Positions 3,150 through 23,739 of a stretch of 23,793 nt of DNA are shown here, piece by piece. The stretch's first letter is position 1; each line of letters begins with the position of its first letter. Made by a program: the position numbers and the translations under genes. Origin of the DNA: a virus; IMG/VR virus record IMGVR_UViG_3300042521_002036, positions 1 through 23,793 of that record. One strand, written 5' to 3'. The notes below the pieces were generated by a model. It had not been told where the DNA came from. It ran no database searches and was given only the letters and a program-made list of their open reading frames with translations.

Positions 3150-3651
3150 ACTTACTAGTTCTTTTGACCAAATGAATCTTGTCGTAGAAGAATTATTAAA
3201 GGGAAAGAATCCCACCGACATATCAAAGTTCTTGGGAATAAAAAGATCTCAGGTATTAGAACACATAGATACATGGAGAGAACTGGTATCTGGAGATAGT
3301 AGAATTAGGGAGCGTGCCAAGGAAGCCCTCGCTGGCGCTGATCAACATTATTCTATGATTATCCAACGCGCCTGGGAAACAGTAGATCAGGCAGATGCCA
3401 ATCAACAATACAACACTAAAGCCTCCGCTCTTAAAATGATTGCAGATGTTGAACAAAAAAGAATTGATATGCTCCAGAAGGCTGGTCTTCTAGAGAATAA
3501 TGAAATGTCTGCTCAACTTCTAGAGACAGAGCGCAAGCAAGAGATCCTTATGAACATTTTAAAGGAAGTAACATCCGAATGCAGTCATTGTAAAATGGAG
3601 GTCGCTAAAAGATTATCAGAGGTTACGGGCAAGGTAGAACCAATTGATTGA
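3136..3651 (+). CDS. Putative terminase small subunit
   Basis: 171 residues. Residues about 18-45 form a helix-turn-helix (KNPTDISKFLGIKRSQVLEHI pattern) followed by long helices; near the C terminus there is a CSHC pair. A DNA-binding protein of this size directly upstream of, and overlapping by 8 nt, a large terminase is expected to be the small subunit, which recognises packaging sites. The TTG start at 3136 is supported by the GGAAGAAG purine tract just upstream; the next ATG (3172) would cut into the N-terminal region. Called mainly from position plus the HTH. Confidence 0.7.
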   Translation: MSEIELTSSFDQMNLVVEELLKGKNPTDISKFLGIKRSQVLEHIDTWRELVSGDSRIRERAKEALAGADQHYSMIIQRAWETVDQADANQQYNTKASALKMIADVEQKRIDMLQKAGLLENNEMSAQLLETERKQEILMNILKEVTSECSHCKMEVAKRLSEVTGKVEPID

Positions 3652-5434
3652 TTTTAGTGACTTTATAGAAGCACTTGACGATGACAAGTTTGAGGAAACT
3701 CCAGCCACGATAGAGGAGTTTGTTACTGACAAGAAGTACCTAGACTTGCCTCCTCTTTCAGAATATCAATACAAAGCCATCAAGTCTATGACGCAAATTT
3801 ATGATAAAGACACCCTAACTAAGTGGCTTGGAGAAGAAGAAGGAATAAAAAGATGGAACCAGACATGCAAGGAAGTGATTCTTCAGATAGGGAAAGGCGG
3901 GGGGAAGGACTTTATCTCTACTATAGGGTGTGCCTATGTTGTCCACCTCTTATTGTGCCTTAGCGACCCAGCCAAATATTATGGTAAGCCGCCAGGAGAT
4001 TCAATTGACATTATTAACATTGCTATAAACGCTGTTCAGGCAAATAGGGTATTCTTTAAAGGGTTCAAGCGTATCATTGAAAAGTCGGCCTGGTTTCAGG
4101 GTAGGTATATCCCCAAGGCTAACAGTATTGAATTTGATAAAGAAATAACTGTTCATTCAGGACATTCAGAGGCAGAATCCTGGGAAGGGTACAACGTCCT
4201 GCTTGCTATCCTTGACGAAATTTCTGGTTTTGAACTAGAGAATACTACAGGCAGGCAGAGTCCAAAGACTTCTGCTGCTATTTATAAAATGTATAGAGCA
4301 TCTGTTAACTCACGCTTCCCGGATTTTGGGAAAGTTATCATGCTTTCATTCCCTAGATTTAAGAATGACTTTATTCAGCAAAAATATAATGATGCGGTAG
4401 CAGAAAAAGAAACTGTAGTTAAATCTCATAGTTTTAAAATAGATCCAGACCTTCCAGATGGTCATGATGGTAATGAATTTACCATTGAGTGGGAGGAGGA
4501 TCATATTGTTTCCTACGCTCTACCACATATATTTGCCTTGAAAAGACCTACCTGGGAATTTAATCCAACCAGAAAAATTCAAGACTTCACCATTGCTTTC
4601 TATGACGATCCATTAGATTCTCTTATGCGCTTTGCCTGTATGCCTCCAGAAGCAACAGATGCATTCTTTAAGTCCCGCGAGAAGATCGAAAAGGCTTTCA
4701 GCAGTCCCAAGTTTGCAGTAGATAGTAGTGGTAGGTTTGCAGAATGGTTCAAGCCAGAGGAAGGCCGTCAGTATTTTGTTCATGTTGACTTAGCCCAAAA
4801 ACATGATAATTGTGCCGTGGCAATGGCTCATATTGAGGGTTGGGTGCAGATGAAGATCGCGGGGACAATGACAGAGGCAGCACCCAGGGTTATCGTGGAC
4901 GCTGTAAGATATTGGCAACCAACATCTACTACTAGTGTAGATTTATCTGAAGTAAAAGATTACATTATTGAATTGCGCGAGCGAGGATTTAATCTGGGAG
5001 TGGTGACATTTGACAGATGGAATTCTCATGACATGATGCAACAATTAAAGCATTATGGAATTAATACTGAATTACTATCTGTGGCGAAGAAACATTACGA
5101 GGACATGGCCCTGCTTGTAACAGAAGAAAGAGTTTATGGCCCAGAACTTAAATTATTAATCGATGAATTATTGCAACTAAGGATACGCGGTGATAAGGTT
5201 GACCACCCTAGAAAGGGCAGCAAGGACTTGGCTGATGCCGTATGTGGCGCGGTCTATAATGCTATTGCTCGCTCTAGAAGAGATTCGCTACAAGAAATCG
5301 AAGTATATTCGTACGATATGCTTGAACAAGATAGCGAGGAAGAGATAAAATTAAGGATGGGTAGGAAACAAAATAGCGAACTTATCATCCCACCCGCTTT
5401 ACAAAATGCTATTGACAGCATGGAAATAATTTAA
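3644..5434 (+). CDS. terL: Terminase large subunit (DNA-packaging ATPase/nuclease)
   Basis: 596 residues, full length for the family. ATPase domain: a deviant Walker A IGKGGGKD (82-89) and Walker B LLAILDE (186-192). C-terminal RNase H-like nuclease: FVHVDLAQKHD (378-388), FDRWN (456-460) and SKDLADAVCGA (526-536) supply the acidic metal ligands. The protein pumps DNA into proheads and cuts the concatemer. The TTG start overlaps the small subunit stop; no better start is nearby. Its 3' end contains a consensus promoter for the tRNA that follows. It is the firmest evidence that this is a tailed phage. Confidence 0.95.
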   Translation: MIDFSDFIEALDDDKFEETPATIEEFVTDKKYLDLPPLSEYQYKAIKSMTQIYDKDTLTKWLGEEEGIKRWNQTCKEVILQIGKGGGKDFISTIGCAYVVHLLLCLSDPAKYYGKPPGDSIDIINIAINAVQANRVFFKGFKRIIEKSAWFQGRYIPKANSIEFDKEITVHSGHSEAESWEGYNVLLAILDEISGFELENTTGRQSPKTSAAIYKMYRASVNSRFPDFGKVIMLSFPRFKNDFIQQKYNDAVAEKETVVKSHSFKIDPDLPDGHDGNEFTIEWEEDHIVSYALPHIFALKRPTWEFNPTRKIQDFTIAFYDDPLDSLMRFACMPPEATDAFFKSREKIEKAFSSPKFAVDSSGRFAEWFKPEEGRQYFVHVDLAQKHDNCAVAMAHIEGWVQMKIAGTMTEAAPRVIVDAVRYWQPTSTTSVDLSEVKDYIIELRERGFNLGVVTFDRWNSHDMMQQLKHYGINTELLSVAKKHYEDMALLVTEERVYGPELKLLIDELLQLRIRGDKVDHPRKGSKDLADAVCGAVYNAIARSRRDSLQEIEVYSYDMLEQDSEEEIKLRMGRKQNSELIIPPALQNAIDSMEII

Positions 5435-5449: not shown

Positions 5450-5523
5450 GGGGCGGTGGCCAAGTTGGTGAAGGCGTCACTCTTATAAGGTGAAGATCGT
5501 GAGTTCAAGTCTCACCCGCCCTA
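5450..5523 (+). tRNA. tRNA-Ile (UAU anticodon, reads AUA)
   Basis: Full cloverleaf: the 7-bp acceptor stem has one G-U pair at its end, the D arm is 3 bp, the anticodon stem 5481-ward is TCACT/GGTGA with loop CTTATAA (anticodon TAT), and the T arm is GTGAG/CTCAC with loop TTCAAGT. CCA is not encoded (next bases CGA). Most bacteria read AUA with a lysidine-modified CAU tRNA, so a UAU isoacceptor is notable. AUA is frequent in the surrounding AT-rich genes. Confidence 0.88.
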
Positions 5524-5524
5524 C

Positions 5525-5656
5525 GATTACAGATGGCAATATCTTAGGATGGTGTAGTTACATACAAATATCCCGTTATAGCGAGTCTGCCGTTGAGTGC
5601 GTTGAATTCGTTTCTAGCGTCTTTCGTGCAAAAAGGATTCGTCGCCATCTGTAATC
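5525..5656 (+). ncRNA. Candidate structured RNA between two tRNA genes (long inverted repeat)
   Basis: GATTACAGATGGC at 5525-5537 is the exact reverse complement of GCCATCTGTAATC at 5644-5656, a perfect 13-bp closing stem around a 106-nt interior. Inside, GGAT (5547-5550) can pair with ATCC (5570-5573) around a smaller GTGT/ACAT hairpin (5552-5563). No reading frame here looks like a gene. It starts one base after tRNA-Ile and ends three bases before tRNA-Pro, so it is probably cotranscribed and released by tRNA processing. It does not fold as a standard tRNA. No known RNA family is recognised. Confidence 0.5.
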
Positions 5657-5659
5657 CCA

Positions 5660-5733
5660 CGGGATGTGGCGCAGTTTGGTAGCGCACCTGTTTTGGGAAC
5701 AGGGGGCCGAAGGTTCAAATCCTTTCATCCCGA
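5660..5733 (+). tRNA. tRNA-Pro (UGG)
   Basis: Acceptor CGGGATG pairs perfectly with CATCCCG; anticodon stem CCTGT/ACAGG carries loop TTTGGGA (anticodon TGG); T arm GAAGG/CCTTT with loop TTCAAAT. Discriminator A at 5733, no encoded CCA; a single C separates it from the ATG of the next gene. Confidence 0.93.
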
Positions 5734-5734
5734 C

Positions 5735-6022
5735 ATGCAGACAATAATTGCAGTAGGAGCAATAACTCTAGCGATAGAGGTGTTTCTATTTTTTGTTCTT
5801 GTAAAACATGTTAAATATATAACATCATTATTTAATGAATATAAGAATTCAAATATTAAAAATGGCGATGTAGAGCAGAAAATAGAAATGTATCAGGATA
5901 AAGTAATTGAACTAGAAGATAAAAATAAAAAACTAGAGTTAGAAAATAAACTTCTACAGGAAAAAATAAGTAAGATAAATAAACAAATGAAGCAAATTAG
6001 CGATCATTTTAAACCAAACTGA
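5735..6022 (+). CDS. Membrane-anchored coiled-coil protein
   Basis: 95 residues from the ATG at 5735, one base after tRNA-Pro. The open frame extends back through the tRNA, but that part is not protein. Residues about 3-24 form one membrane helix (IIAVGAITLAIEVFLFFVLV); residues about 45-90 are a charged Lys/Glu/Leu heptad-like coiled coil. There is no ribosome binding site, so it is probably translated from an mRNA made by cutting off the tRNA (inference). Function unknown; spanin-like or membrane scaffold roles cannot be decided. Confidence 0.65.
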   Translation: MQTIIAVGAITLAIEVFLFFVLVKHVKYITSLFNEYKNSNIKNGDVEQKIEMYQDKVIELEDKNKKLELENKLLQEKISKINKQMKQISDHFKPN

Positions 6023-6028
6023 TATAAT
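6020..6028 (+). promoter_or_regulatory. Extended -10 promoter, leaderless type
   Basis: TGATATAAT (TGN plus TATAAT) followed after 6 nt by ATG at 6035. The first transcribed base should coincide with the start codon. No good -35 is seen. Confidence 0.6.
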
Positions 6029-6034
6029 TAATAT

Positions 6035-6271
6035 ATGGAGGACTCCATGGAAACTGAAGTTCAGGAAGAAGTAAGAGTTCTTACCAGAAGCGATAGGTGT
6101 GATGCACCTAAATGTCCCGCTCAGGCGTGGGTTATCGCTAAGTTTGTAACTGGCGAGTTGTATTTCTGTGGGCACCACTTTGACAAGTACGAGGTTAGCA
6201 TCATTCGTGATGCATACGATATTGTAGATGAAAGAGAATTTATCAATGCTAAATCAGAATCTTCTGCTTAG
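6035..6271 (+). CDS. DUF7455-like small zinc-binding protein
   Basis: 78 residues. DRCDAPKCPAQAWVIAKF followed by GELYFCGHHFDKYE gives a Cys4/His2-type zinc site and matches my memory of the DUF7455 family of small actinobacterial and actinophage proteins. Two starts compete: ATG 6035, placed for leaderless translation from the extended -10 at 6020-6028, and ATG 6047, with a GGAGG 5 nt upstream that is itself inside the longer form. Function unknown. Confidence 0.75.
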   Translation: MEDSMETEVQEEVRVLTRSDRCDAPKCPAQAWVIAKFVTGELYFCGHHFDKYEVSIIRDAYDIVDEREFINAKSESSA

Positions 6272-6758
6272 TAAAAGGGATAAAATAAAACTTGTTAGAG
6301 AGCGTGATGGATTTACATGCGCCATCTGCCTAAAGGATTTTAAGGCAAATTCTGACGTAACATTAGATCATTGGATTCCCCGTTCAGCGGGAGGATCAGA
6401 AGATGTATCTAATTTAAGACTTGCACATAAAAAGTGTAACGCATGGAAAAGTGATAGGATACCTAATGAAGATGGATCGATTCCTCCGCGCCCTCCAAGG
6501 GCTAATTATCAAGATCGAAGGCGGAGAAAGCAAGAAATATTAGAAAGCCTCTGTACCGACTGCTATGATGGTAGGCTGCTATTGCAGGGAGAAACATGTC
6601 CATACTGTGGATCTCCAGCGGGTCCAGAAGATTGGCCCCATTGGGCAAAAAAACCAGCAAATAAGTGTGATCATACCCCGCCAGAATGGTGCTGGGCATG
6701 TTCTATAGGAATAGTTGACCGAAAACCAGTATTTCTGGTACTATTAGAAGGTAACTAG
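6246..6758 (+). CDS. HNH endonuclease with C-terminal zinc-ribbon region
   Basis: About 170 residues. The HNH core is clear: CAIC (25-28), TLDHWIPRSAGG (39-50), an Asn near 56 and HKKCN (61-65), i.e. the beta-beta-alpha metal fold with paired zinc cysteines, which nicks or cuts DNA. The C-terminal half carries further Cys pairs (CTDC, CPYC, and a CDHTPPEWCWAC stretch). HNH proteins near terminases often help terminase cleave DNA in cos-type phages; here it lies about 800 nt downstream. An in-frame ATG at 6228 is possible; 6246 has the purine tract GAAAGAGAA upstream. It overlaps the previous gene in another frame. Confidence 0.85.
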   Translation: MLNQNLLLSKRDKIKLVRERDGFTCAICLKDFKANSDVTLDHWIPRSAGGSEDVSNLRLAHKKCNAWKSDRIPNEDGSIPPRPPRANYQDRRRRKQEILESLCTDCYDGRLLLQGETCPYCGSPAGPEDWPHWAKKPANKCDHTPPEWCWACSIGIVDRKPVFLVLLEGN

Positions 6759-6762
6759 ATAG

Positions 6763-6833
6763 TCCCTGATGGTGTAATGGTAGCACAAATGACTTTGGAT
6801 CATTTAGTTTTAGTTCGAATCTAGATCGGGGAG
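6763..6833 (+). tRNA. tRNA-Gln (UUG)
   Basis: Acceptor TCCCTGA/TCGGGGA (one T-G pair), anticodon stem AATGA/TCATT with loop CTTTGGA (anticodon TTG), T arm TTTAG/CTAGA with loop TTCGAAT. Discriminator G; no encoded CCA (next bases CGG). Confidence 0.9.
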
Positions 6834-6845
6834 CGGGAGGGTATT

Positions 6846-7037
6846 ATGCCTTGGAAAGTACAAAGAAACTTTGGCGATTGCAATGGATATGCAGTAGTCA
6901 AAGAAGGAACAAACGAAATTGAGGGTTGCCATGCAACTCGCGCAGAGGCAGAGGCACAACAACGTGCGCTTTATGCTTCTGAAAATAAGTCAGACTCCGT
7001 ATGGGACGGCGCATTTATTGAAAAGGGATACAATTGA
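6846..7037 (+). CDS. Small phage protein with a CHATRAEAEAQQRALYASE motif
   Basis: 63 residues starting MPWKVQRNFGDCNGYAVVK, with a strong ribosome site GGGAGGG just upstream. The middle (GCHATRAEAEAQQRALYASE) matches a short module often seen in phage proteins, sometimes fused to prohead protease or portal-associated proteins; here it stands alone. It overlaps the next small gene by 4 nt (TTGA). Role unknown, possibly virion-related. Confidence 0.7.
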   Translation: MPWKVQRNFGDCNGYAVVKEGTNEIEGCHATRAEAEAQQRALYASENKSDSVWDGAFIEKGYN

Positions 7038-7171
7038 CACGCGATAAGATTATTGAAAGACTTAAGGCAAAGAAGATGAAAAGTTCTGCTTCATCTGCTG
7101 AAATTAGTTCTTTTATTGCAGGATGGAATCAGGCAATTAAAGAGGCGATTGATCTTTTAGAAAAAGATTAA
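7034..7171 (+). CDS. 45-residue hypothetical protein
   Basis: TTG start overlapping the previous stop (TTGA), with AAAAGGGA upstream as the ribosome site. The translation begins MTRDKIIERLKAKK and is predicted to be helical, with a basic N terminus and acidic C terminus (LLEKD). It ends 6 nt before tRNA-Gly. Tight coupling and a proper ribosome site argue for a real gene; no family is recognised. Confidence 0.55.
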   Translation: MTRDKIIERLKAKKMKSSASSAEISSFIAGWNQAIKEAIDLLEKD

Positions 7172-7177
7172 TCTCTC

Positions 7178-7248
7178 GCGAGTGTGGTGTAGAGGTAACA
7201 CATCTGCCTTCCAAGCAGTTATCGCCAGTTCGATTCTGGTCACTCGCT
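7178..7248 (+). tRNA. tRNA-Gly (UCC)
   Basis: Acceptor GCGAGTG/CACTCGC perfect; anticodon stem CTGC/GCAG (outer pair mismatched) with loop CTTCCAA (anticodon TCC); T arm CCAG/CTGG with loop TTCGATT. Discriminator T, then C, then the ATG of the next gene. Confidence 0.9.
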
Positions 7249-7249
7249 C

Positions 7250-7966
7250 ATGAAATTCCTACCTGATAAATACAAGGCGGGTAAAGTAGTTGAAGAAAAC
7301 TACACCCATTATTTTATATGGGACGATTCAGATAAACAAGTAGTTGATGGAATGTGCCATTCTCCAGGGATAGAAGTAATGGTTATTCATCCAAAAACTA
7401 ATTATTTTTATTCTGAAAACTTTTCATCCTGGGAAAGAATGTTCAGCGCACCAGAATTTCATCATGATTATGGCAAGTGCGGCGGAACCGGAGTGATAAA
7501 TAATCAACTACCATTATTCAACATACATCAAACATTTTCTTTCTGGAAAAGAATGTACGCCAATAATAAATTTGATCATTACATAATGACTTTAGTTGGA
7601 GTAAGTCTATTAGAGTTTAGAATAAGTAGGAATACGACTATATGCCTAGATAAATCACAATCTAAAAAAGTTCAACATTTATCTAAATTGTATTCTAAAT
7701 CCGGTCTAGCACCAGACCCAGTAAAAGTTCTTCTTAATGAAGAAGATGAAAAATTCGACTACGACAGTTTTGAAATAAATTTTGAAATAGAAAAAATAGA
7801 ATATATAGATGACATTTTATTATTCAGAGGAGAAATGTTGTCTAGGTATGAAATAAAAAATGCTATAGATGGAAGAACTGATTTACCTAGATTTTTGAGG
7901 CAGATAGAACTTAAAAGTCTTGACCCATCAGATATTGTATGTGATAATCAATTATCGTTGTTCTAG
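7250..7966 (+). CDS. Unknown protein with two putative sliding-clamp-binding motifs
   Basis: 238 residues, start ATG one base after tRNA-Gly, no ribosome site. The last residues are DNQLSLF, an exact match to the bacterial DnaN beta-clamp binding consensus QL(S/D)LF, and an internal NNQLPLF lies near residues 84-90. Such C-terminal peptides tether polymerases, mismatch-repair and regulatory proteins to the clamp. The rest is rich in aromatic and charged residues, with HHDYGKCGGTG near 71-81, and matches no family I know. tRNA-Arg begins 3 nt after the stop. Clamp binding is inferred from the motifs only. Confidence 0.7.
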   Translation: MKFLPDKYKAGKVVEENYTHYFIWDDSDKQVVDGMCHSPGIEVMVIHPKTNYFYSENFSSWERMFSAPEFHHDYGKCGGTGVINNQLPLFNIHQTFSFWKRMYANNKFDHYIMTLVGVSLLEFRISRNTTICLDKSQSKKVQHLSKLYSKSGLAPDPVKVLLNEEDEKFDYDSFEINFEIEKIEYIDDILLFRGEMLSRYEIKNAIDGRTDLPRFLRQIELKSLDPSDIVCDNQLSLF

Positions 7967-7969
7967 TTG

Positions 7970-8042
7970 GCCCCAGTAACTCAGAGGATAGAGTGTCGGA
8001 CTTCTAATCCGTTGGTCGCAGGTTCGAATCCTGCCTGGGGCG
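7970..8042 (+). tRNA. tRNA-Arg (UCU)
   Basis: Acceptor GCCCCAG/CTGGGGC perfect; anticodon stem TCGGA/TCCG(T) with loop CTTCTAA (anticodon TCT, reads AGA); T arm GCAGG/CCTGC with loop TTCGAAT. Discriminator G, no CCA. Confidence 0.93.
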
Positions 8043-8047
8043 CTTAT

Positions 8048-8134
8048 GGAAGTATGGCAGAGTGGTTATTGCAACGGTTTGCTAAACCGTGATCGGTTAA
8101 TACTGATCCATAGGTTCGAATCCTATTACTTCCG
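8048..8134 (+). tRNA. tRNA-Ser (GCU)
   Basis: Class II tRNA with a long variable arm (GATCGGTTAATACTGATC). Acceptor GGAAGTA/TACTTCC perfect; anticodon stem ACGGT/ACCGT with loop TTGCTAA (anticodon GCT); T arm ATAGG/CCTAT. Discriminator G; CCA not encoded. Confidence 0.93.
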
Positions 8135-8143
8135 CACCACTTA

Positions 8144-8215
8144 TGGCGTGTGGCGCAATGGCAGCGCAATCGGCTGTTAACCGATGGGTTGTAGGTTCGA
8201 ATCCTACCACGCCAG
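8144..8215 (+). tRNA. tRNA-Asn (GUU)
   Basis: Acceptor TGGCGTG/CACGCCA perfect; anticodon stem ATCGG/CCGAT with loop CTGTTAA (anticodon GTT); T arm GTAGG/CCTAC. Discriminator G at 8215. It alone in the set is followed by an encoded CCA (8216-8218), one base before tRNA-Tyr. Confidence 0.93.
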
Positions 8216-8219
8216 CCAA

Positions 8220-8299
8220 GCCGGATAGCCCCCAAGGTGGGGGAGCGGTCTGTAAAACCGTCGCCTAAGGCATGGTTGGTTCGATTCCAACATCCGGCA
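8220..8299 (+). tRNA. tRNA-Tyr (GUA)
   Basis: Acceptor GCCGGAT/ATCCGGC perfect; anticodon stem GCGGT/ACCGT with loop CTGTAAA (anticodon GTA); extra arm CGCC-TAA-GGC as in bacterial class II tRNA-Tyr; T arm TTGG/CCAA region with TTCGATT. Discriminator A. Confidence 0.93.
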
Positions 8300-8311
8300 C
8301 AAAATACTAAA

Positions 8312-8326: not shown

Positions 8327-9064
8327 ATGTACCCATGTCTTATAGATGTTTTCACTCCAGATGAGTGCCTAAATATAGTTAATAAACTTGACAGTATGAA
8401 TGAATATTGGACTTATAGATGTAGCAATGGTCCAAGTTCTACATATACTTTAGGTGCTGCCACCTATCAAGATAGTAATAATTTAGATAATTATTATAAA
8501 TTATCAATTAGTACTAATGAAATTATATTAAGCACTTTCAAGGAAGAATTTGAAAGAATATTAGAAGTTTTAAATAGGGAAGTCGGACCATCTGAGTTAG
8601 AATATGATTTAGCAGTACCAGGGTTTAACATATTCGTTAATGATAGTGAAAAACAGTTTTCTCTCCTCTCCCTTGGAGATGTAATAACTCATACAGATTT
8701 TGTAGATGATGCACATGATCAAATTTTTCAAAAAAAATATAAAAATATTAATCATGATGAAAAAATTTCCTTTACTCTATCACTAGAATTGCCAAGAGGG
8801 GGGAGCGGGATAAGCGTATGGGGAGATTCTAGTTTAGATAAGTATGACCATGACCAAGAATTTAGTAAAATAATTAAAAAAATAGGATATTACAATAATA
8901 ATAAGCCCAGTATAGTTAATTATTATGTTGGCAAAGCATTCATTTTCTCTGGAAGATATCCACATCAAGTAACTCCAACAGTTAAATATTATTTAGGAGA
9001 TAGAAGAATTACTATCCAAGGACATGCAATAAATTGCGATGGTAAGTTTAGGTGGTTTGTTTAA
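8327..9064 (+). CDS. 2-oxoglutarate/Fe(II)-dependent oxygenase-like protein
   Basis: 245 residues. The expected double-stranded beta-helix ligands are visible: HTDF (H122, D124) as the HxD pair and YPHQVTP (H213) as the distal histidine, with GDRRITIQGHA (R226/R227) supplying the 2OG-binding arginine. The middle ELPRGGSGISVWGDSS fits the family's GGx-strand. These enzymes hydroxylate amino acids, nucleobases or small molecules. Start is leaderless from the extended -10 at 8312. A glycosyltransferase follows after 2 nt, so the pair may hydroxylate and then glycosylate a target (inference). Confidence 0.75.
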   Translation: MYPCLIDVFTPDECLNIVNKLDSMNEYWTYRCSNGPSSTYTLGAATYQDSNNLDNYYKLSISTNEIILSTFKEEFERILEVLNREVGPSELEYDLAVPGFNIFVNDSEKQFSLLSLGDVITHTDFVDDAHDQIFQKKYKNINHDEKISFTLSLELPRGGSGISVWGDSSLDKYDHDQEFSKIIKKIGYYNNNKPSIVNYYVGKAFIFSGRYPHQVTPTVKYYLGDRRITIQGHAINCDGKFRWFV

Positions 9065-9066
9065 TT

Positions 9067-10062
9067 ATGTTAAATAATATATTGATAGCGATGGCTGGTC
9101 AGGATGAAAATTTTATATCCCAAACTGTAGAGAGTTGCCTAGACAACGCAATATTTCCAGATAATATAAATTTTTCTATAGTGGATCAAAGATCTGATGG
9201 GAACTTTGCAAAATTACCAGAGAATAAAAATATAATTGTAAATCAAATTTTAACCATGCCCAGGGGCGTTGGGTATGGAAGATCTCTATCCATACCAAAA
9301 AAAATAAAAGAAAAATATGTTTTAAGCATTGATCCTCATATGGTATTTTCACCTGGATGGGATAAGGAACTTCTAGATAGATATATTGAAGTTAAAAATA
9401 AATTTAATCAGGATGTAGTAGTATCTCAACATCTTCCATGGTCAACTATAGTTGATAATAAATTAGTAATACATGAAGATGTTGTGCCAGGTGAGGCATA
9501 TAGTTTGTTTTTTAATGGCATATTTGTAGACGCAAAGCCAATACCCAAGAATTTAGATTATGTAGAACAGGAGGCTCTATGCGGGTACTATTTATTCTCA
9601 GGAAGATCTGTTTTTGAAGAAGTTAGATTTGACCCACGATTATTTTATTTCTCAGAAGAATCAGTACTTTCTTTAAGATTAATATCTAGAGGACATAAAT
9701 TAGTATCATTAAATTATAATCCTATGTTTCATTTAGAAAAAGTATTAACTAAATCAGATTCTGACTGGAGAAATAGAATAAAAATAGAATCAGTAAAAAG
9801 AGACATAAAAATATTCTATGAAACATTTTCAGGGGAGTACTTTGGCGAGTGGGGCGCTAAGGATTTAGATAGTTTAGAAAATTTTAAAAATAAAAATGGG
9901 ATATCTATGGACCTACTTTTGAGTAAAATAAATTATTCAGAAGAATTTGGCGATAAAAAAGAATTCCTTCTAGGAACAATTGATGGAATATTTAATAATA
10001 CAGATGTATGGACAGCAATATACGATATAGTGCTTAATACTATAAAAAATAATGAAAGATAG
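9067..10062 (+). CDS. Glycosyltransferase (GT2/GT60 GlcNAc-transferase-like)
   Basis: 331 residues, start ATG 2 nt after the upstream stop. ILIAMAGQDEN at the N terminus, RGVGYGRSLS (66-75) and LSIDPHMVFSPGWD (86-99) follow the pattern of GlcNAc-transferase-like (GT60) proteins, in which the D-x-H motif binds metal and nucleotide sugar. FYFSEESVLSLRLISRGHKL further on fits the acceptor/E-D region of the fold. GT60 members glycosylate hydroxyproline in some eukaryotes; pairing with an upstream 2OG oxygenase here recalls that two-step chemistry, but this is inference. The N-terminal extension to a GTG at 9052 is unlikely. Confidence 0.75.
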   Translation: MLNNILIAMAGQDENFISQTVESCLDNAIFPDNINFSIVDQRSDGNFAKLPENKNIIVNQILTMPRGVGYGRSLSIPKKIKEKYVLSIDPHMVFSPGWDKELLDRYIEVKNKFNQDVVVSQHLPWSTIVDNKLVIHEDVVPGEAYSLFFNGIFVDAKPIPKNLDYVEQEALCGYYLFSGRSVFEEVRFDPRLFYFSEESVLSLRLISRGHKLVSLNYNPMFHLEKVLTKSDSDWRNRIKIESVKRDIKIFYETFSGEYFGEWGAKDLDSLENFKNKNGISMDLLLSKINYSEEFGDKKEFLLGTIDGIFNNTDVWTAIYDIVLNTIKNNER

Positions 10063-11410: not shown

Positions 11411-11484
11411 GCCTCAGTAACTCAGTTGGCCAGAGTATCCGCCTTGTAAGCGGAAAGTCATCGGTTCGAATCCGATCTGAGGCT
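11411..11484 (+). tRNA. tRNA-Thr (UGU)
   Basis: Acceptor GCCTCAG/CTGAGGC perfect; anticodon stem TCCGC/GCGGA with loop CTTGTAA (anticodon TGT); T arm ATCGG/CCGAT with loop TTCGAAT. Discriminator T, then C, then the ATG of the next gene. Confidence 0.93.
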
Positions 11485-11485
11485 C

Positions 11486-12508: not shown

Positions 12509-13036
12509 ATGGACAATCGTAATGTCATTGATTATTACAAGCAATGGGAGACTGATCAAATTAAGGCTGATCTAGATACCCGCCGACTTCCTTTTATCGT
12601 GGGCTTTGAGAATATTTCAGGTGACTTTAATAAGGCTACAGGAATTAGGAATGCTAATGCATTTATGGCCAAAGAATGCTGGATTGTTGGAGCCAAGAAA
12701 TGGGATAAGCGTGGTGCTGTAGGAACTCAACACTACAATCACTTAAAGTATGCTCCAAGTCTAGATAATATCTATCTTCATGAACCACAAGTTCGTGGTG
12801 CCAGGTGGGTGGCGATTGATAATGTTCCAGGTGCTATTCCAATTACCTCATATGAATGGAAGCCAGAAACTTTTATGATATTTGGCGAAGAGCAAAGGGG
12901 ACTTAGCCCGATGGCCTTAGGCATGGCTGACGATATTGTCTACATCCCACAACTTGGAAGCGTTCGTAGTCTAAATGTTGGTACTGCAAGTGGTATTGTT
13001 ATGTATGACTATGTGACAAAATTGGGCATGGTATAA
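12509..13036 (+). CDS. SpoU/TrmH-family RNA 2'-O-methyltransferase
   Basis: 175 residues. The SPOUT trefoil-knot motifs are present: FGEEQRGLS (125-133), then VYIPQLGSVRSLNVGTASGI at 144-163, with the asparagine that contacts SAM/RNA. The family methylates ribose 2'-OH in tRNA or rRNA. It starts 2 nt after the oxygenase stop, with GGAG upstream. The nine phage tRNAs nearby suggest tRNA as substrate (inference). The length equals the minimal catalytic domain. Confidence 0.9.
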   Translation: MDNRNVIDYYKQWETDQIKADLDTRRLPFIVGFENISGDFNKATGIRNANAFMAKECWIVGAKKWDKRGAVGTQHYNHLKYAPSLDNIYLHEPQVRGARWVAIDNVPGAIPITSYEWKPETFMIFGEEQRGLSPMALGMADDIVYIPQLGSVRSLNVGTASGIVMYDYVTKLGMV

Positions 13037-14627: not shown

Positions 14628-14832
14628 TGCACATGACTTCGTGGCCAAGAACAGCCACCGTGGTTATTTCTGGGACGGATGGAATATCAATAGATGGGTT
14701 CCAAATCCATCTGGGTACATGTCTCAGGATGGTGAGTTTCGTCATGGTAAGTGGGGTATGAAATTTACATTCCCCGTAAATAATGACGGGTCATGGAAAG
14801 TAAAGGTCCCAGCAAATGTCGAATATAATTGA
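14599..14832 (+). CDS. Hypothetical protein with aromatic-rich beta region
   Basis: 77 residues, ATG start inside the preceding small gene with CAGAAAG upstream. Sequence such as GYFWDGWNINRW and KWGMKFTFPVNNDGSWKV suggests a small beta fold. It overlaps the WhiB gene by 17 nt. Similar short proteins are known only as hypotheticals. Confidence 0.6.
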   Translation: MKTLTLNYSDAHDFVAKNSHRGYFWDGWNINRWVPNPSGYMSQDGEFRHGKWGMKFTFPVNNDGSWKVKVPANVEYN

Positions 14833-15151
14833 GGAACTAGGACTAGATCCAGATAATGTAAAATGGTATCAATTAGCAGCATGTTCTGGTGCTGATATTA
14901 ATATGTTTTATGATGACTATGAGACAGATAAATTCTTAGCAACACAGGTAGATGAGATGTGTTTGCATTGTCCAGTCATATCACAATGCTATAATGAAGG
15001 TATAAGTAATAAAGAAAAAGGGGTCTGGGGAGGTATCTACCTAGACCTTGGAAGAGTAGACAGAGAAAATAACTTACATAAAACTCAAGAAGTTTGGGAC
15101 AGGTTAAAGAATAGTCATGGGTCAAGTATTCTACACAAAAGAGATGGCTAA
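14816..15151 (+). CDS. WhiB-like Fe-S transcriptional regulator
   Basis: 111 residues. Four cysteines in the Wbl pattern: C23, then C49-x2-C52-x5-C58 (MCLHCPVISQC), followed by KGVWGG (68-73), the diagnostic Wbl turn. Wbl proteins bind a [4Fe-4S] cluster and act with the primary sigma factor; they exist only in actinobacteria and their phages, so this fixes the host group. The basic C-terminal helix typical of DNA-binding Wbls is weak here. Start ATG overlaps the preceding gene. Confidence 0.92.
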   Translation: MSNIIEELGLDPDNVKWYQLAACSGADINMFYDDYETDKFLATQVDEMCLHCPVISQCYNEGISNKEKGVWGGIYLDLGRVDRENNLHKTQEVWDRLKNSHGSSILHKRDG

Positions 15152-16044: not shown

Positions 16045-16335
16045 ATTTTATCTGATGCTGTGATAATAGCCCTTATAGGTCTTGCAGGAACTATATTTAC
16101 TGGGGCTATAGTAAAGTACTTTGACTATAGATTAAATAGAATAAGACACGACTTTGACGAGCGTGTCCAAATCAGGTCTGATAATGTAGAAGATCTAAAT
16201 ATTCTAAAACAAGAGTTAGAGAAAAGAAAAGAAGAGATTAGAATACTTGAGAATGAATTAGATGAGTGGAAGGGTAAGTATTATGAGATACTTGAACACC
16301 TTATTGAACTTAGGGGAAAATTAAATGGTAACTAG
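16045..16335 (+). CDS. Membrane-anchored coiled-coil protein, possible ATT start
   Basis: The first ordinary start is GTG at 16060 but the ribosome site GGGGTGGA (16033-16040) is about 20 nt away; an in-frame ATT at 16045 sits 4-5 nt after it and gives a normal N terminus (I/M-LSDAVIIALIGLAG). One membrane helix (about residues 4-22) is followed by a highly charged coiled coil to the end (LKQELEKRKEEIRILENELDE). Topology resembles small phage membrane/scaffold or spanin-like proteins. It overlaps the next membrane gene by 11 nt. Confidence 0.65.
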   Translation: MLSDAVIIALIGLAGTIFTGAIVKYFDYRLNRIRHDFDERVQIRSDNVEDLNILKQELEKRKEEIRILENELDEWKGKYYEILEHLIELRGKLNGN

Positions 16336-16558
16336 AATTGTTGGTTTACTAGTATTGCTTGCATGTCTAACAGTTTCTTTGCTAAGGGGTCTAGGTGTGA
16401 TGGACGGGGATTTTATTATTCCATTACTACTTCTTAGCCAATTAGTTATTTTAGGCTACTTGGTACAACTAGTACAAATGCTTGCCAAGGACATTCTGAT
16501 AAGATATACTAGTAACAGTACGAAAACAACAACGACCAATCTACATACCTGGAACTAA
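16325..16558 (+). CDS. Small two-helix membrane protein (holin candidate)
   Basis: 77 residues with two hydrophobic stretches, about 4-22 and 29-54, joined by a short acidic/polar turn (GVMDGD), then a polar Thr/Asn/Lys tail. Size and topology fit a class II holin, and the coiled-coil membrane protein just upstream would suit a lysis partner, but no endolysin is adjacent (the lysozyme-like gene is 5 kb away). The holin reading is a guess. The next gene starts 1 nt after the stop. Confidence 0.6.
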   Translation: MVTRIVGLLVLLACLTVSLLRGLGVMDGDFIIPLLLLSQLVILGYLVQLVQMLAKDILIRYTSNSTKTTTTNLHTWN

Positions 16559-16559
16559 T

Positions 16560-17093
16560 ATGACATGTATTTCTGCACTATCATATAACGGTAAAGTTTG
16601 TATGGGTGGAGATTCTGCTTCAGTAGATGAAGATTCTTCTTTAGTATCTTCTAGAAAAGAACCAAAAGTATTCATAAAGAATGGGTACTTGCTAGGCTAC
16701 GCTGGAAGTTTCAGATTTGGAAAAGTTCTCCAGCACACATTTAGTCCTCCAAAACTTTCTGATGATGATGTAGATAAGTTCTTAAATACTACATTTGTAA
16801 ATGCTCTAAGAGAATGCTGTGAATTAAATAAAGTAGACCCTGGATCAGAAGAAGATTCATCAGAAATGCTTATAGGCGTGGCAGGCAGGGTATTTGAATT
16901 TTGCAATGACTGGCACTTTGGCGAGGATATTAATAATTTTAATGCTATTGGATCAGGAACAAAGTTCGCACTAGGATCTTTATATTCTACTAGACGAATC
17001 AAGTCTCCTACTGCTAGAATACAAATGGCGCTTGAATCTGCGGAGAGATTTTCTCCATCTGTAAGAGGTCCGTTCACTATATTGGAGTTGTAA
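16560..17093 (+). CDS. Proteasome beta/HslV-like Ntn-hydrolase peptidase
   Basis: 177 residues starting MTCISALSYNGK. After Met removal, Thr1 would be the N-terminal nucleophile; Asp17 lies in GGDSA exactly as in proteasome beta subunits, and a Lys near 35 (EPKVF) takes the place of Lys33; GYAGSFRFG matches the G47-type substrate-binding turn. Such phage Ntn-hydrolases are predicted self-compartmentalising peptidases. No unfoldase partner (ClpX-, HslU- or Mpa-like) is in this window, so it may work with host factors or alone. The neighbouring gene overlaps its stop (TAATG). Confidence 0.8.
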   Translation: MTCISALSYNGKVCMGGDSASVDEDSSLVSSRKEPKVFIKNGYLLGYAGSFRFGKVLQHTFSPPKLSDDDVDKFLNTTFVNALRECCELNKVDPGSEEDSSEMLIGVAGRVFEFCNDWHFGEDINNFNAIGSGTKFALGSLYSTRRIKSPTARIQMALESAERFSPSVRGPFTILEL

Positions 17094-17284
17094 TGCTAGA
17101 TGCCAGAGGTCTTCCGACCCCAGAGTGTCCTAGTTGTGGTAGTTGGTTGCTTAAAGTAACCCTTAATTTCGATGAAGAATATAACATATGCTCGTATTTA
17201 CTTGAAGGAGAGTGTGCCATGTGTGGCACACTTCTTACTGTACCTACCCCACTAGACCATCCAGATTATGAGGAGATGTTGTGA
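17093..17284 (+). CDS. Small zinc-ribbon protein
   Basis: 63 residues with CPSC (C12, C15) and CAMC (about 40-43) pairs, a classic two-knuckle zinc ribbon. It overlaps the Ntn-hydrolase stop and the next gene's GTG start, within one coupled operon. Function unknown. Confidence 0.7.
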   Translation: MLDARGLPTPECPSCGSWLLKVTLNFDEEYNICSYLLEGECAMCGTLLTVPTPLDHPDYEEML

Positions 17285-17911: not shown

Positions 17912-18445
17912 ATGCAAGTTTTTCTACCAGAACATACTTACCGAGATTGTGCCCAGGCATTAGACCAAAAACGTTTGGTTAAGCAGTTGCTTGAGGGTAG
18001 GCAGATTCTTGCAGCACTTGCTGGTCAAACTAGGGGTTGGGTAAACCACCCTGCCACTCGTATGTTTAATGGATACGAGGGAGAACTTGTATCTTATCTA
18101 TTGCAAATCAAGATTGAAATGGAACAGCGCGGCTACAAGTGGGAAAATAACTGGGACACTATTACTGATACATGGACCAAATACTTTAAGCCCAAGCACG
18201 GAGTAGCCATTGAACTTCCTGACTATTTAAAGCCAGGGCATCCAGATAACCTTAGACTTATTATTACACATCGTGGTAGACTATATGAGAAAGCGCCAGA
18301 ACTGTATCCACAGTATCGGCATGAGTCTACTATTTACCGCCAGTATGTTTGTTGTGATAGGTGCAATTACTACTGGCCTACCCACCCCAAGGAGGATAAG
18401 ACTTGTTTAATAACGTCAGAGTCGTTGAAGGCTCAGAGCGCGTAA
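17912..18445 (+). CDS. Pyrimidine-dimer DNA glycosylase-like protein (MSMEG_6728 type)
   Basis: 177 residues. MQVFLPEHTYRDCAQALDQKRLVKQ..EGRQIL and HPATRMFNGYEGEL are the defining blocks of the Pyr_excise/MSMEG_6728 family, related to T4 endonuclease V that excises UV pyrimidine dimers (the family link is known; activity here is inferred). The C terminus has a CCDRC pair, probably a zinc knuckle. Fits an aquatic, light-exposed phage. Overlaps the next gene by 43 nt. Confidence 0.82.
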   Translation: MQVFLPEHTYRDCAQALDQKRLVKQLLEGRQILAALAGQTRGWVNHPATRMFNGYEGELVSYLLQIKIEMEQRGYKWENNWDTITDTWTKYFKPKHGVAIELPDYLKPGHPDNLRLIITHRGRLYEKAPELYPQYRHESTIYRQYVCCDRCNYYWPTHPKEDKTCLITSESLKAQSA

Positions 18446-23159: not shown

Positions 23160-23522
23160 TTATACACGAACGAGCGGGTCTTTGCTAGTGGATATGGAAG
23201 ATGGAGCCTTTACTCCCCCCTCGCATGAGCAATACATCATGTGATAATGGCAGTCAAAACAAGTAACAAACTCTACAACATATCCCTCTTTACTACGCCC
23301 CCTGAGTTTCTTAGGCTTGCGAACCTGGGTCATAGGAGGAACGTGTGGACGAATAATGACAGGCTCTAGTTCAGGTAGACCATCATCTCTCTTACCTGTA
23401 CGACCTTCTAGTTTCCCGCCTTCTTCTTGGTAGTCCTTCAGAGCAGTCATCATCTCAGCAGTAAAGCGACCACGCTCTCCTACTGTGAATCCCAGACTAC
23501 GCAGATACTCACGCTTATCCAT
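23160..23522 (-). CDS. Lsr2-like DNA-binding protein with Cys cluster
   Basis: About 120 residues from ATG 23522 (an in-frame ATG at 23534 is possible). MDKREYLRSLGFTVGERGRFTAEMMTALKDY follows the Lsr2 C-terminal DNA-binding domain pattern (LGxxV-x-x-RGRxP/T-x-E..xA), in which RGR inserts into the AT-rich minor groove. The domain is N-terminal here and the Lsr2 dimerisation domain is absent. The C-terminal CFDCHYHMMYCSC segment is Cys-rich, probably zinc. Likely regulatory or origin binding given its position next to the DnaA-box region. Confidence 0.6.
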   Translation of the reverse strand: MDKREYLRSLGFTVGERGRFTAEMMTALKDYQEEGGKLEGRTGKRDDGLPELEPVIIRPHVPPMTQVRKPKKLRGRSKEGYVVEFVTCFDCHYHMMYCSCEGGVKAPSSISTSKDPLVRV

Positions 23523-23739
23523 TCCATGCCCCATTCTCTGTCATGATCTCTACTTGCATCTCTAGGTTATATTCAGCCTGAGTGTAGAATCTATAAGATA
23601 CATCTACCATCTTCAGAAGGGCAGCATCATTCAGCATAGCCGCCTCGCTTTCATATGACCTAAGATGGTCATGATGTTGTGAGTGTAGTTCCCACACATA
23701 CCCGCCAGGGCCACAGTCAATCTCTATAAACTTTAGCAT
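23515..23739 (-). CDS. Hypothetical protein
   Basis: 74 residues; ATG 23739 preceded by GGTGGAG on the minus strand (an upstream in-frame TTG at 23754 is less likely). MLKFIEIDCGPGGYVWEL and a histidine-rich HSQHHDHLRSYESEAAML stretch. It overlaps the Lsr2-like gene by 8 nt. No family recognised. Confidence 0.55.
   Translation of the reverse strand: MLKFIEIDCGPGGYVWELHSQHHDHLRSYESEAAMLNDAALLKMVDVSYRFYTQAEYNLEMQVEIMTENGAWNG

Follow-up and report, generated by a model that had tools for sequence, protein, structure and literature searches.

Introduction

Fuchs, Alva and Lupas described 22 new proteasome homologs in 2021 (PMC8665760). In the parts of that survey on which we draw here, group I, which is related to HslV and BPH, includes PPH and AAH. 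PPH has about 140 residues, lacks helix H2, and is found in phages and their hosts. AAH occurs in many phage genomes and in alpha-proteobacteria, actinobacteria, Firmicutes and others. The same parts of the survey report that AAH was not found in actinobacteria-specific phages, and that its genomic context gave no hint of function. BPH forms tetradecameric double rings with an acidic inner surface and cavity, and it binds epoxomicin. In the sections of the BPH report used here, a partner unfoldase was not apparent, and a pull-down recovered neither HslU nor any other obvious partner (PMC5777263). HslV without HslU has also been noted in a Salmonella jumbo phage (PMC7823757), and the phrase "peptidase HslV" occurs once in a further article (PMC11841896). 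Phage peptidases of the PHROG 1040/AAH kind are already described, and the family is not new.

Here we analyze a viral DNA of 23,793 nucleotides (IMG/VR record IMGVR_UViG_3300042521_002036), which we call the window. It carries a gene for a proteasome/HslV-like Ntn peptidase of 177 aa (16560..17093, plus strand) that is best filed as AAH-type.

Results

The window very probably belongs to an actinophage

The window is very probably from a tailed phage of an actinobacterium. We base this assignment on two actinophage markers, a WhiB-like regulator (14816..15151, plus strand; phrog_472, 1.2e-15) and an Lsr2-like protein (23160..23534, minus strand; phrog_6269, 1.5e-8), and on the large terminase subunit (3644..5434, plus strand). 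Its identity to the terminases of Streptomyces phages, Phredrick and Gilson among them, reaches 62%, and its gene is 11 kb away from that of the peptidase. Three reports treat WhiB as a marker of actinophages (PMC6802176, PMC10202952, PMC8612146). We found WhiB in all seven contigs tested from the near clade, the branch of the peptidase tree that holds the window protein, and it was missing from the one contig tested outside that clade.

Divergent relatives of the peptidase are present in phage DSL-LC01 and in the Arthrobacter phages Hum25 and Pitbull, the latter two both annotated "protease." DSL-LC01 is a 129-kb genome from a lake metagenome, and the peptidase is annotated in its record; the words "HslV" and "protease" are absent from the main text of the DSL-LC01 paper as available to us (PMC10611076).

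The remainder of the window is varied. Nine tRNA genes lie at 5450-8300 and 11411-11485, and scattered among them are small ORFs and a gene for an HNH endonuclease. The terminase and most of the tRNAs are flanked by two stretches, 2-1970 and 8327-10062, which contain two glycosyltransferase-like ORFs (2-679 and 9052-10062) as well as three ORFs, 215-245 aa long, that have no known function. A SpoU-family RNA methyltransferase-like gene at 12509-13036 recurs in 13 of 17 near-clade loci, and a gene like pyrimidine dimer DNA glycosylase (PF03013) occupies 17912-18445.

The peptidase gene is intact and under purifying selection

The peptidase ORF is intact, with an ATG start, 177 codons, and a TAA stop. 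Directly upstream, an ORF finishes at 16558, and on the downstream side the TAA and the start codon (ATG) of the following ORF overlap at 17093. Frame 1 of the opposite strand is interrupted by stops, and another frame contains a mechanically called ORF of 126 aa. A first-pass annotation of the window, made from the sequence by itself, had called the protein "only" 177 residues long. The length is correct, but it is no oddity, because HslV chains in the PDB have 171-198 aa and 177 is thus a usual size.

Purifying selection acts on the gene, with dN/dS values of 0.06-0.17 against ten near relatives, in six of which dS exceeds 1 and is saturated. These values, together with a match to PHROG 1040, relatives in 164 phage records, and the retained Thr, Asp and Lys, show that the ORF is more than a product of chance. 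None of the PADLOC models matched the peptidase, and a defence or anti-defence role was dropped for that reason.

The neighborhood is conserved, and the peptidase gene is optional

The gene order in the near clade is WhiB, several small genes, the peptidase, a 63-aa CxxC...CxxC protein, and a HAD/PNKP-like phosphatase. Among 17 near-clade loci, some of them short, WhiB is present in 14, the CxxC gene in 17, and the phosphatase in 12. The start of the CxxC gene (17093..17284, plus strand) overlaps the peptidase stop in the window, and the same overlap is seen in most near-clade loci. Directly upstream of the peptidase is the gene for a 77-aa hydrophobic small protein (16325..16558, plus strand) that is found in 6 of the 17 loci and has no family match. 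It is preceded by the gene for a 91-aa protein with a hydrophobic N terminus and a charged tail (16060..16335, plus strand; 14 of 17 loci), which belongs to phrog_10127, of unknown function. In the window, the peptidase neighbors are small unknowns, WhiB, and a dCMP deaminase.

We considered the 63-aa zinc-ribbon-like protein as an obligate partner or adaptor of the peptidase. This candidate was dropped, because the peptidase gene is directly upstream of the 63-aa gene in just 14 of the 32 viral loci that have the latter. Four of the other 18 loci have fewer than 200 bases upstream. We searched 11 of these 18 contigs and found a divergent peptidase elsewhere in three and none in the available sequence of eight. 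Given the 14 of 32 loci, the peptidase gene is optional in these phages. In L232-L237 and L239, a protein of 42-46 aa with an INPWEWLWDDE core replaces the missing peptidase upstream of the 63-aa gene.

The active-site residues are conserved

The first-pass annotation had proposed a proteasome-type active site with Thr1, Asp17 and a Lys near residue 35, and had pointed to a GYAGSFRFG stretch; all of these are present in the translated protein. We followed them in a fresh alignment of 108 non-redundant relatives. Thr2 (codon 16563..16565), which is the catalytic Thr1 of the mature protein, is Thr in 107 of the 108 rows and Ser in one. Asp18 (codon 16611..16613), the triad Asp17, is kept in 108 of 108, a count that is partly selected in the cellular rows because the residue lies inside one of the two cellular search patterns. 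Lys36 (codon 16665..16667), which is Lys35 of the mature protein and the equivalent of Lys33, is also kept in 108 of 108. It aligns with Lys33 of M. tuberculosis PrcB, which is two residues shorter before the Lys. Thr and Lys are outside all the patterns used to find viral and cellular relatives. A check of the relatives for loss of the three residues found none, the single Thr-to-Ser change being the sole substitution.

The window protein starts with MT and, like AAH, has no propeptide. At the position of the query Met, (M/V/L)T was found in 171 of 173 loci, near-copies included, and the exceptions were one MS and one truncated match. A Met that is followed by Thr is cleaved off by methionine aminopeptidase, and Thr1 thereby becomes free.

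Three further elements are encoded on the same strand. The two Gly residues of a GSG motif (residues 131-133; 16950..16958) are kept in 108 of 108 rows, and between them the 68 rows of alignment A3 have Cys 51 times and Ser 15 times. We take this motif to be at the position of proteasome Ser129. An acidic loop after helix H2 (residues 89-101; 16824..16862) is at what we take for the pore-loop position and is net negative in 62 of the 68 rows of A3. Gly46 (codon 16695..16697) is found in 108 of 108 rows, a figure that is partly selected because this residue is inside the pattern of the viral search and one of the two cellular search patterns. Gly46 probably corresponds to Gly47, for which the survey, in the part cited, gives an oxyanion-hole role (PMC8665760).

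The predicted structure is a proteasome-like Ntn fold

We predicted the structure of a single chain with AlphaFold2, using the window protein and 67 viral relatives as input. The model has a mean pLDDT of 94.7 and a pTM of 0.89. It shows an Ntn fold with the nucleophile at the start of the first strand, in agreement with the fold that had been proposed at first pass. Helices span residues 51-60, 71-89, 134-143 and 150-164, forming both helix pairs, and the last strand spans 173-176. As in AAH, there are the H1-H4 pairs, no insertions, and no C-terminal S12/H5.

The closest known structures are BPH and HslV. Foldseek placed BPH 5ovs (E 4.4e-12) and HslV 6kui (1.2e-11) at the top. In VIA-align, BPH 5ovs superposed with a Z score of 21.2 and an rmsd of 2.0 over 163 residues, its chain residue 1 falling on model residue 2. 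HslV 3ty6 and 6kui, with Z scores of 21.1, are tied with BPH, followed by actinobacterial PrcB at about 19-20, with M. tuberculosis PrcB 3mka at 20.1; the "viral" structure library was left out of this comparison, and a family missing from its rows is not thereby shown to be absent. The family profile, run against PDB sequences, gave BPH 5ovu as the best match (residues 2-174, E 1.5e-5) and then HslV (6.5e-5). We regard it as nearly certain that the window protein has the fold and active site of a proteasome-like Ntn peptidase, and it is very likely an active protease.

The peptidase is best filed as AAH-type

A single PHROGs family matched the peptidase, phrog_1040, "peptidase HslV family" (E 4.3e-18, residues 1-176). 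The Pfam Proteasome model gave 11.3 bits, which is under its cut-off of 22.4. The scores for the NCBIfam models 20S_bact_beta (TIGR03690; 21.6 bits against an equivalog cut-off of 191.9) and HslV (TIGR03692; 11.3 bits against 157.75) are so far below the cut-offs that an equivalog of proteasome beta (PrcB) or HslV was ruled out. PPH was ruled out as well, since the window protein has 177 aa and a helix at 71-89, compared with the approximately 140 residues of PPH and its lack of H2. The two-helical insertion between S3 and S4 that marks the connectase type is missing, and the model has no helix before residue 51. We found that the protein is best filed as AAH-type, by description and spread rather than by comparison with reference sequences. 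This filing follows from the presence of both helix pairs and from relatives that have the taxonomic spread of AAH.

We searched three collections for those relatives. With tblastn, 164 of 50,697 phage records had one (E <= 0.01), every one of them below 60% identity. By name, 88 of these are Salmonella and 25 are Escherichia phage records, and the two that were examined are T5-like Epseptimavirus. The records include phages of E. coli, Salmonella, Vibrio and Geobacillus. In IMG/VR, 13 of 19 pattern-matched stretches encoded close relatives, and a profile search gave 242 of 255. In the genome collection, 129 of 181 candidate stretches encoded relatives. The best 80 of the 242 viral relatives and 80 of the 129 cellular ones were kept. 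The 80 cellular relatives are largely from Rhizobiales, Azospirillum and actinobacteria, with some from Firmicutes and others; the actinobacterial carriers include Frankia, Dactylosporangium, Asanoa, Streptomyces and Micromonosporaceae. The neighbors of the cellular genes are conserved only between close species, except for an ORF of about 590 aa in four of five Firmicutes loci; ORF calling here was crude, and many of the high-GC ORFs listed are probably spurious.

Viral and cellular relatives fall into a single family in a quickly made tree of 117 rows, in which the window clade (12 rows) is one branch with an SH-aLRT support of 98. The unity of this clade is the one firm result of that tree, in which 52 of 114 inner branches have a support below 80 and branches are long. 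The tree was built without L136-L139 (interrupted), L183 (start missing) and near-identical rows, and its outgroups were the 4 of 9 PrcB and 5 of 7 HslV loci extracted by a motif script. The clade had a support of 88 in a second tree, from which the outgroups and three long rows were removed and to which three rows were added. Rows from Frankia, Streptomyces and Micromonosporaceae lie outside the window clade, grouped with further cellular and viral rows. Because the window clade is a separate branch, the trees do not indicate a recent pick-up from the sampled genes of these bacteria, and we are unsure of the deeper order.

Several individual relatives stand out. L132, from a 3-kb contig of a Salinibacterium MAG, is placed apart from the other cellular actinobacterial rows. 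The AAH frame ends after 38 codons in all of L136-L139 (two Rhizobium lusitanum, R. leucaenae and R. freirei), and intact copies are present in other Rhizobium genomes (L120, L123). The phage relatives L015 and L018 have C-terminal tails rich in Lys, Ala and Pro, which the window protein lacks.

No unfoldase gene was found in the near clade

We searched for AAA (PF00004) and AAA_2 (PF07724) domains. Neither was found in the seven near-clade contigs (25 to 105 kb, linear in IMG/VR and maybe fragments), and all 14 control genomes gave matches. The first-pass observation that no ATPase partner is seen thus holds for these seven contigs, possibly fragments. Across 16 searched records, PF00004 matched in eight, over the cut-off in five, and PF07724 matched once, in Vibrio phage R16F. 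With none of these matches in the seven near-clade contigs, they give no indication of a phage-borne unfoldase common to the family.

The R16F genome (vB_VpaM_R16F; L022, OP793884.1) has a 728-aa open frame with two AAA stretches, away from the peptidase. A second small gene directly behind its peptidase is annotated "nucleophile aminohydrolase."

In the wider viral family, the gene is often near portal and terminase genes

Across 49 non-redundant viral loci, the immediate neighbors of the peptidase frequently match head and packaging families. The tallies behind this observation (45 downstream and 48 upstream ORFs) count families, so that one gene may appear several times, and we used them as a lead only. 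The portal family phrog_12 is present in 27 of the 49 contigs, within 2 kb of the peptidase in 13 of these 27 and on the same strand in 24. The terminase family phrog_2 occurs in 16 contigs; in 9 of them it is no more than 2 kb away, and in 14 it is on the same strand.

We then compared these distances with a positional null in contigs of at least 20 kb, which took contigs as independent and gene position as uniform and which left out shorter contigs and those lacking phrog_12 (22 of 49) or phrog_2 (33 of 49). A portal gene was within 2 kb in 8 of 20 contigs, compared with 1.8 expected under a null that disallows overlap (p 1e-4) and 2.5 under one that allows it. A terminase gene was within 2 kb in 5 of 12, compared with 1.1 (p 0.002) and 1.5, respectively. 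Within 5 kb, the excess persisted for the portal (11 of 20 versus 4.3 expected, p 0.0015) and was not significant for the terminase (5 of 12 versus 2.6 expected, p 0.087).

At least 22 of the 49 loci, three of them identified by direct labeling, have a head gene next to the peptidase or no more than 2 kb away. Nine of ten directly labeled downstream genes were head or packaging genes, a choice that is biased, mainly by size. The position of the peptidase gene inside the head module varies among relatives. In L071 and L105 a head maturation protease is encoded directly behind the peptidase, and in L101 it is fused to a capsid domain. These three relatives indicate that the Ntn peptidase stands beside the usual head protease rather than replacing it, and that it is not needed as the head maturation protease.

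The peptidase of the window clade is outside the head module, with the terminase 11 kb upstream in the window. In the stretch examined around the gene in 11 annotated named phage records, we found no portal or capsid annotation, and a terminase is near the peptidase in DSL-LC01 only, about 5 kb off. In Geobacillus, T5-like, Pseudoalteromonas and two Vibrio phages, ribonucleotide reductase, PhoH, thymidylate synthase or dihydrofolate reductase is encoded nearby. Our literature search on phage Ntn/HslV-like peptidases gave no head-assembly role among the matches listed. Placement beside portal and terminase genes in the wider viral family hints at a role in head assembly. The first-pass idea that the enzyme may process virion proteins thereby gains indirect, family-level backing from the head-module placement, but this placement is not common to the window's own clade.

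Discussion

We tentatively propose that the window gene encodes an accessory peptidase of the HslV/BPH/AAH branch, which forms rings, needs no ATP, and clears or trims unfolded proteins at the time when virions are produced. In this proposal, host methionine aminopeptidase would expose Thr1, and the subunits would build a double ring that encloses the active sites, like the rings of BPH and HslV. Hydrolysis would proceed without ATP and would act on unfolded chains or peptides rather than on folded proteins. ATP-independent working is suggested by the lack of an own unfoldase among the genes found and by the acidic loop at the pore position, as proposed for BPH. A ring that works without a dedicated unfoldase is, in our analysis, probable; a host unfoldase could serve the peptidase, and we count this against the ATP-independent reading. 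The task of the ring may be to clear or trim unfolded or misassembled proteins while virions are made. This part is suggested by the family-wide gene placement, and a tie to virion production is possible, though open to considerable doubt. A broader version would give AAH peptidases a common and so far overlooked part in phage head assembly. Rings that need no ATP, made along with the products of terminase, portal and capsid genes, would remove or trim head proteins that are misfolded or left unassembled and would act as a viral quality-control proteasome; some actinophages would have moved the gene out of the head module. We think this version unlikely.

The same gene placement bears on a different role, in which the Ntn peptidase would carry out one defined maturation cleavage of a head protein, be it the scaffold, the capsid or the portal. 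Head or packaging genes close to the peptidase in at least 22 of 49 diverse viral contigs, and a portal gene on the same strand in 24 of 27, are what such an enzyme would lead one to expect. However, L071, L105 and the capsid fusion in L101 already supply head maturation proteases directly behind the peptidase, the place in the module varies, and the window clade and the named phages examined have no head placement. A closed ring would also shut out folded capsid proteins. We therefore judge a defined maturation step quite improbable. A protease that degrades particular host proteins early in infection, by way of a host AAA+ unfoldase, is a somewhat better candidate, although we still find it rather doubtful; degradation of host factors was also among the first-pass suggestions. 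Use of the host unfoldase would explain why phages carry only the peptidase, with no AAA or AAA_2 gene found in the seven near-clade contigs. The nucleotide-metabolism genes near the peptidase in several named phages, and the run with WhiB and dCMP deaminase in the window, also suit an early host-directed function. Clustering with the head module is not expected from it, however, and the BPH pull-down, in the sections cited, recovered neither HslU nor another obvious partner (PMC5777263). The hosts differ as well: among 16 cellular AAH genomes searched, a 20S beta gene scored over the cut-off in nine, which are all of the actinobacteria, and HslV is present in the remaining seven, so that one conserved host partner is not obvious.

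The two remaining explanations have very little probability in our estimation. The first-pass annotation had raised interference with the host Pup-proteasome, for instance by joining host rings or competing for Mpa. The fold does resemble actinobacterial PrcB (Z about 19-20), and the host is probably actinobacterial. However, relatives are present in phages of E. coli, Salmonella, Vibrio and Geobacillus, and these hosts are not known to have a Pup-proteasome; in an E. coli control, the 20S beta model stayed under its cut-off. Cellular AAH and 20S beta, moreover, coexist in nine of nine actinobacterial genomes searched, and the suggestion found no support. It is just as improbable that the protein is a ligase, as in connectase, or has some other Ntn activity. 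One ligase does occur among the proteasome-like homologs in the part of the survey cited (PMC8665760), but the model lacks the S3/S4 two-helical insertion of connectase, and its compact form fits the group I peptidases.

Two points are new with respect to the parts of the 2021 survey used here. Phage AAH-type peptidases extend to probable actinophages, where the survey reported none, so that a very probable actinophage with such a peptidase fills the gap it had named. Placement in the wider family is biased toward portal and terminase genes, where the survey saw no telling context. If the head link is true, phages control the quality of their assembly with a proteasome-like particle of their own; if it is false, the window encodes one more optional phage protease of unknown target. 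Relatives in SuperGirl (recorded host E. coli K-12) and Hum25 (Arthrobacter globiformis) make the link testable.

Among the closest known systems, AAH shares with the window peptidase the compact group I subunit, both helix pairs, the Thr/Asp/Lys triad, and the missing propeptide. The carrier differs, being a probable actinophage, a kind in which the survey, as far as cited, found no AAH, and the cellular AAH copies sampled from Frankia, Streptomyces and Micromonosporaceae are separate from the window's own branch. The PHROG 1040 profile is longer, at 277 positions, and its family name carries no functional test. PPH is likewise a phage-borne group I Ntn peptidase. Relatives with the same triad and other surroundings are found in Actinomycetia phage DSL-LC01 ("ATP-dependent protease subunit," 31% identity), Escherichia phage SuperGirl (bas29_0065, "hypothetical protein," 28%) and Arthrobacter phage Hum25 (gp81, "protease," 25%). 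HslV (ClpQ) shares the fold, the size and the Thr1 chemistry (Z up to 21.1), whereas the window protein misses the HslV equivalog cut-off and no HslU-type gene was found in seven near-clade contigs. BPH, tied with HslV as the nearest solved structure (5ovs, 5ovt, 5ovu), is about 19-21% identical and is not phage-borne in the sections of its report cited here (PMC5777263), but it may resemble the window peptidase in having an acidic pore-loop region and no known unfoldase, none having been found in the seven near-clade contigs.
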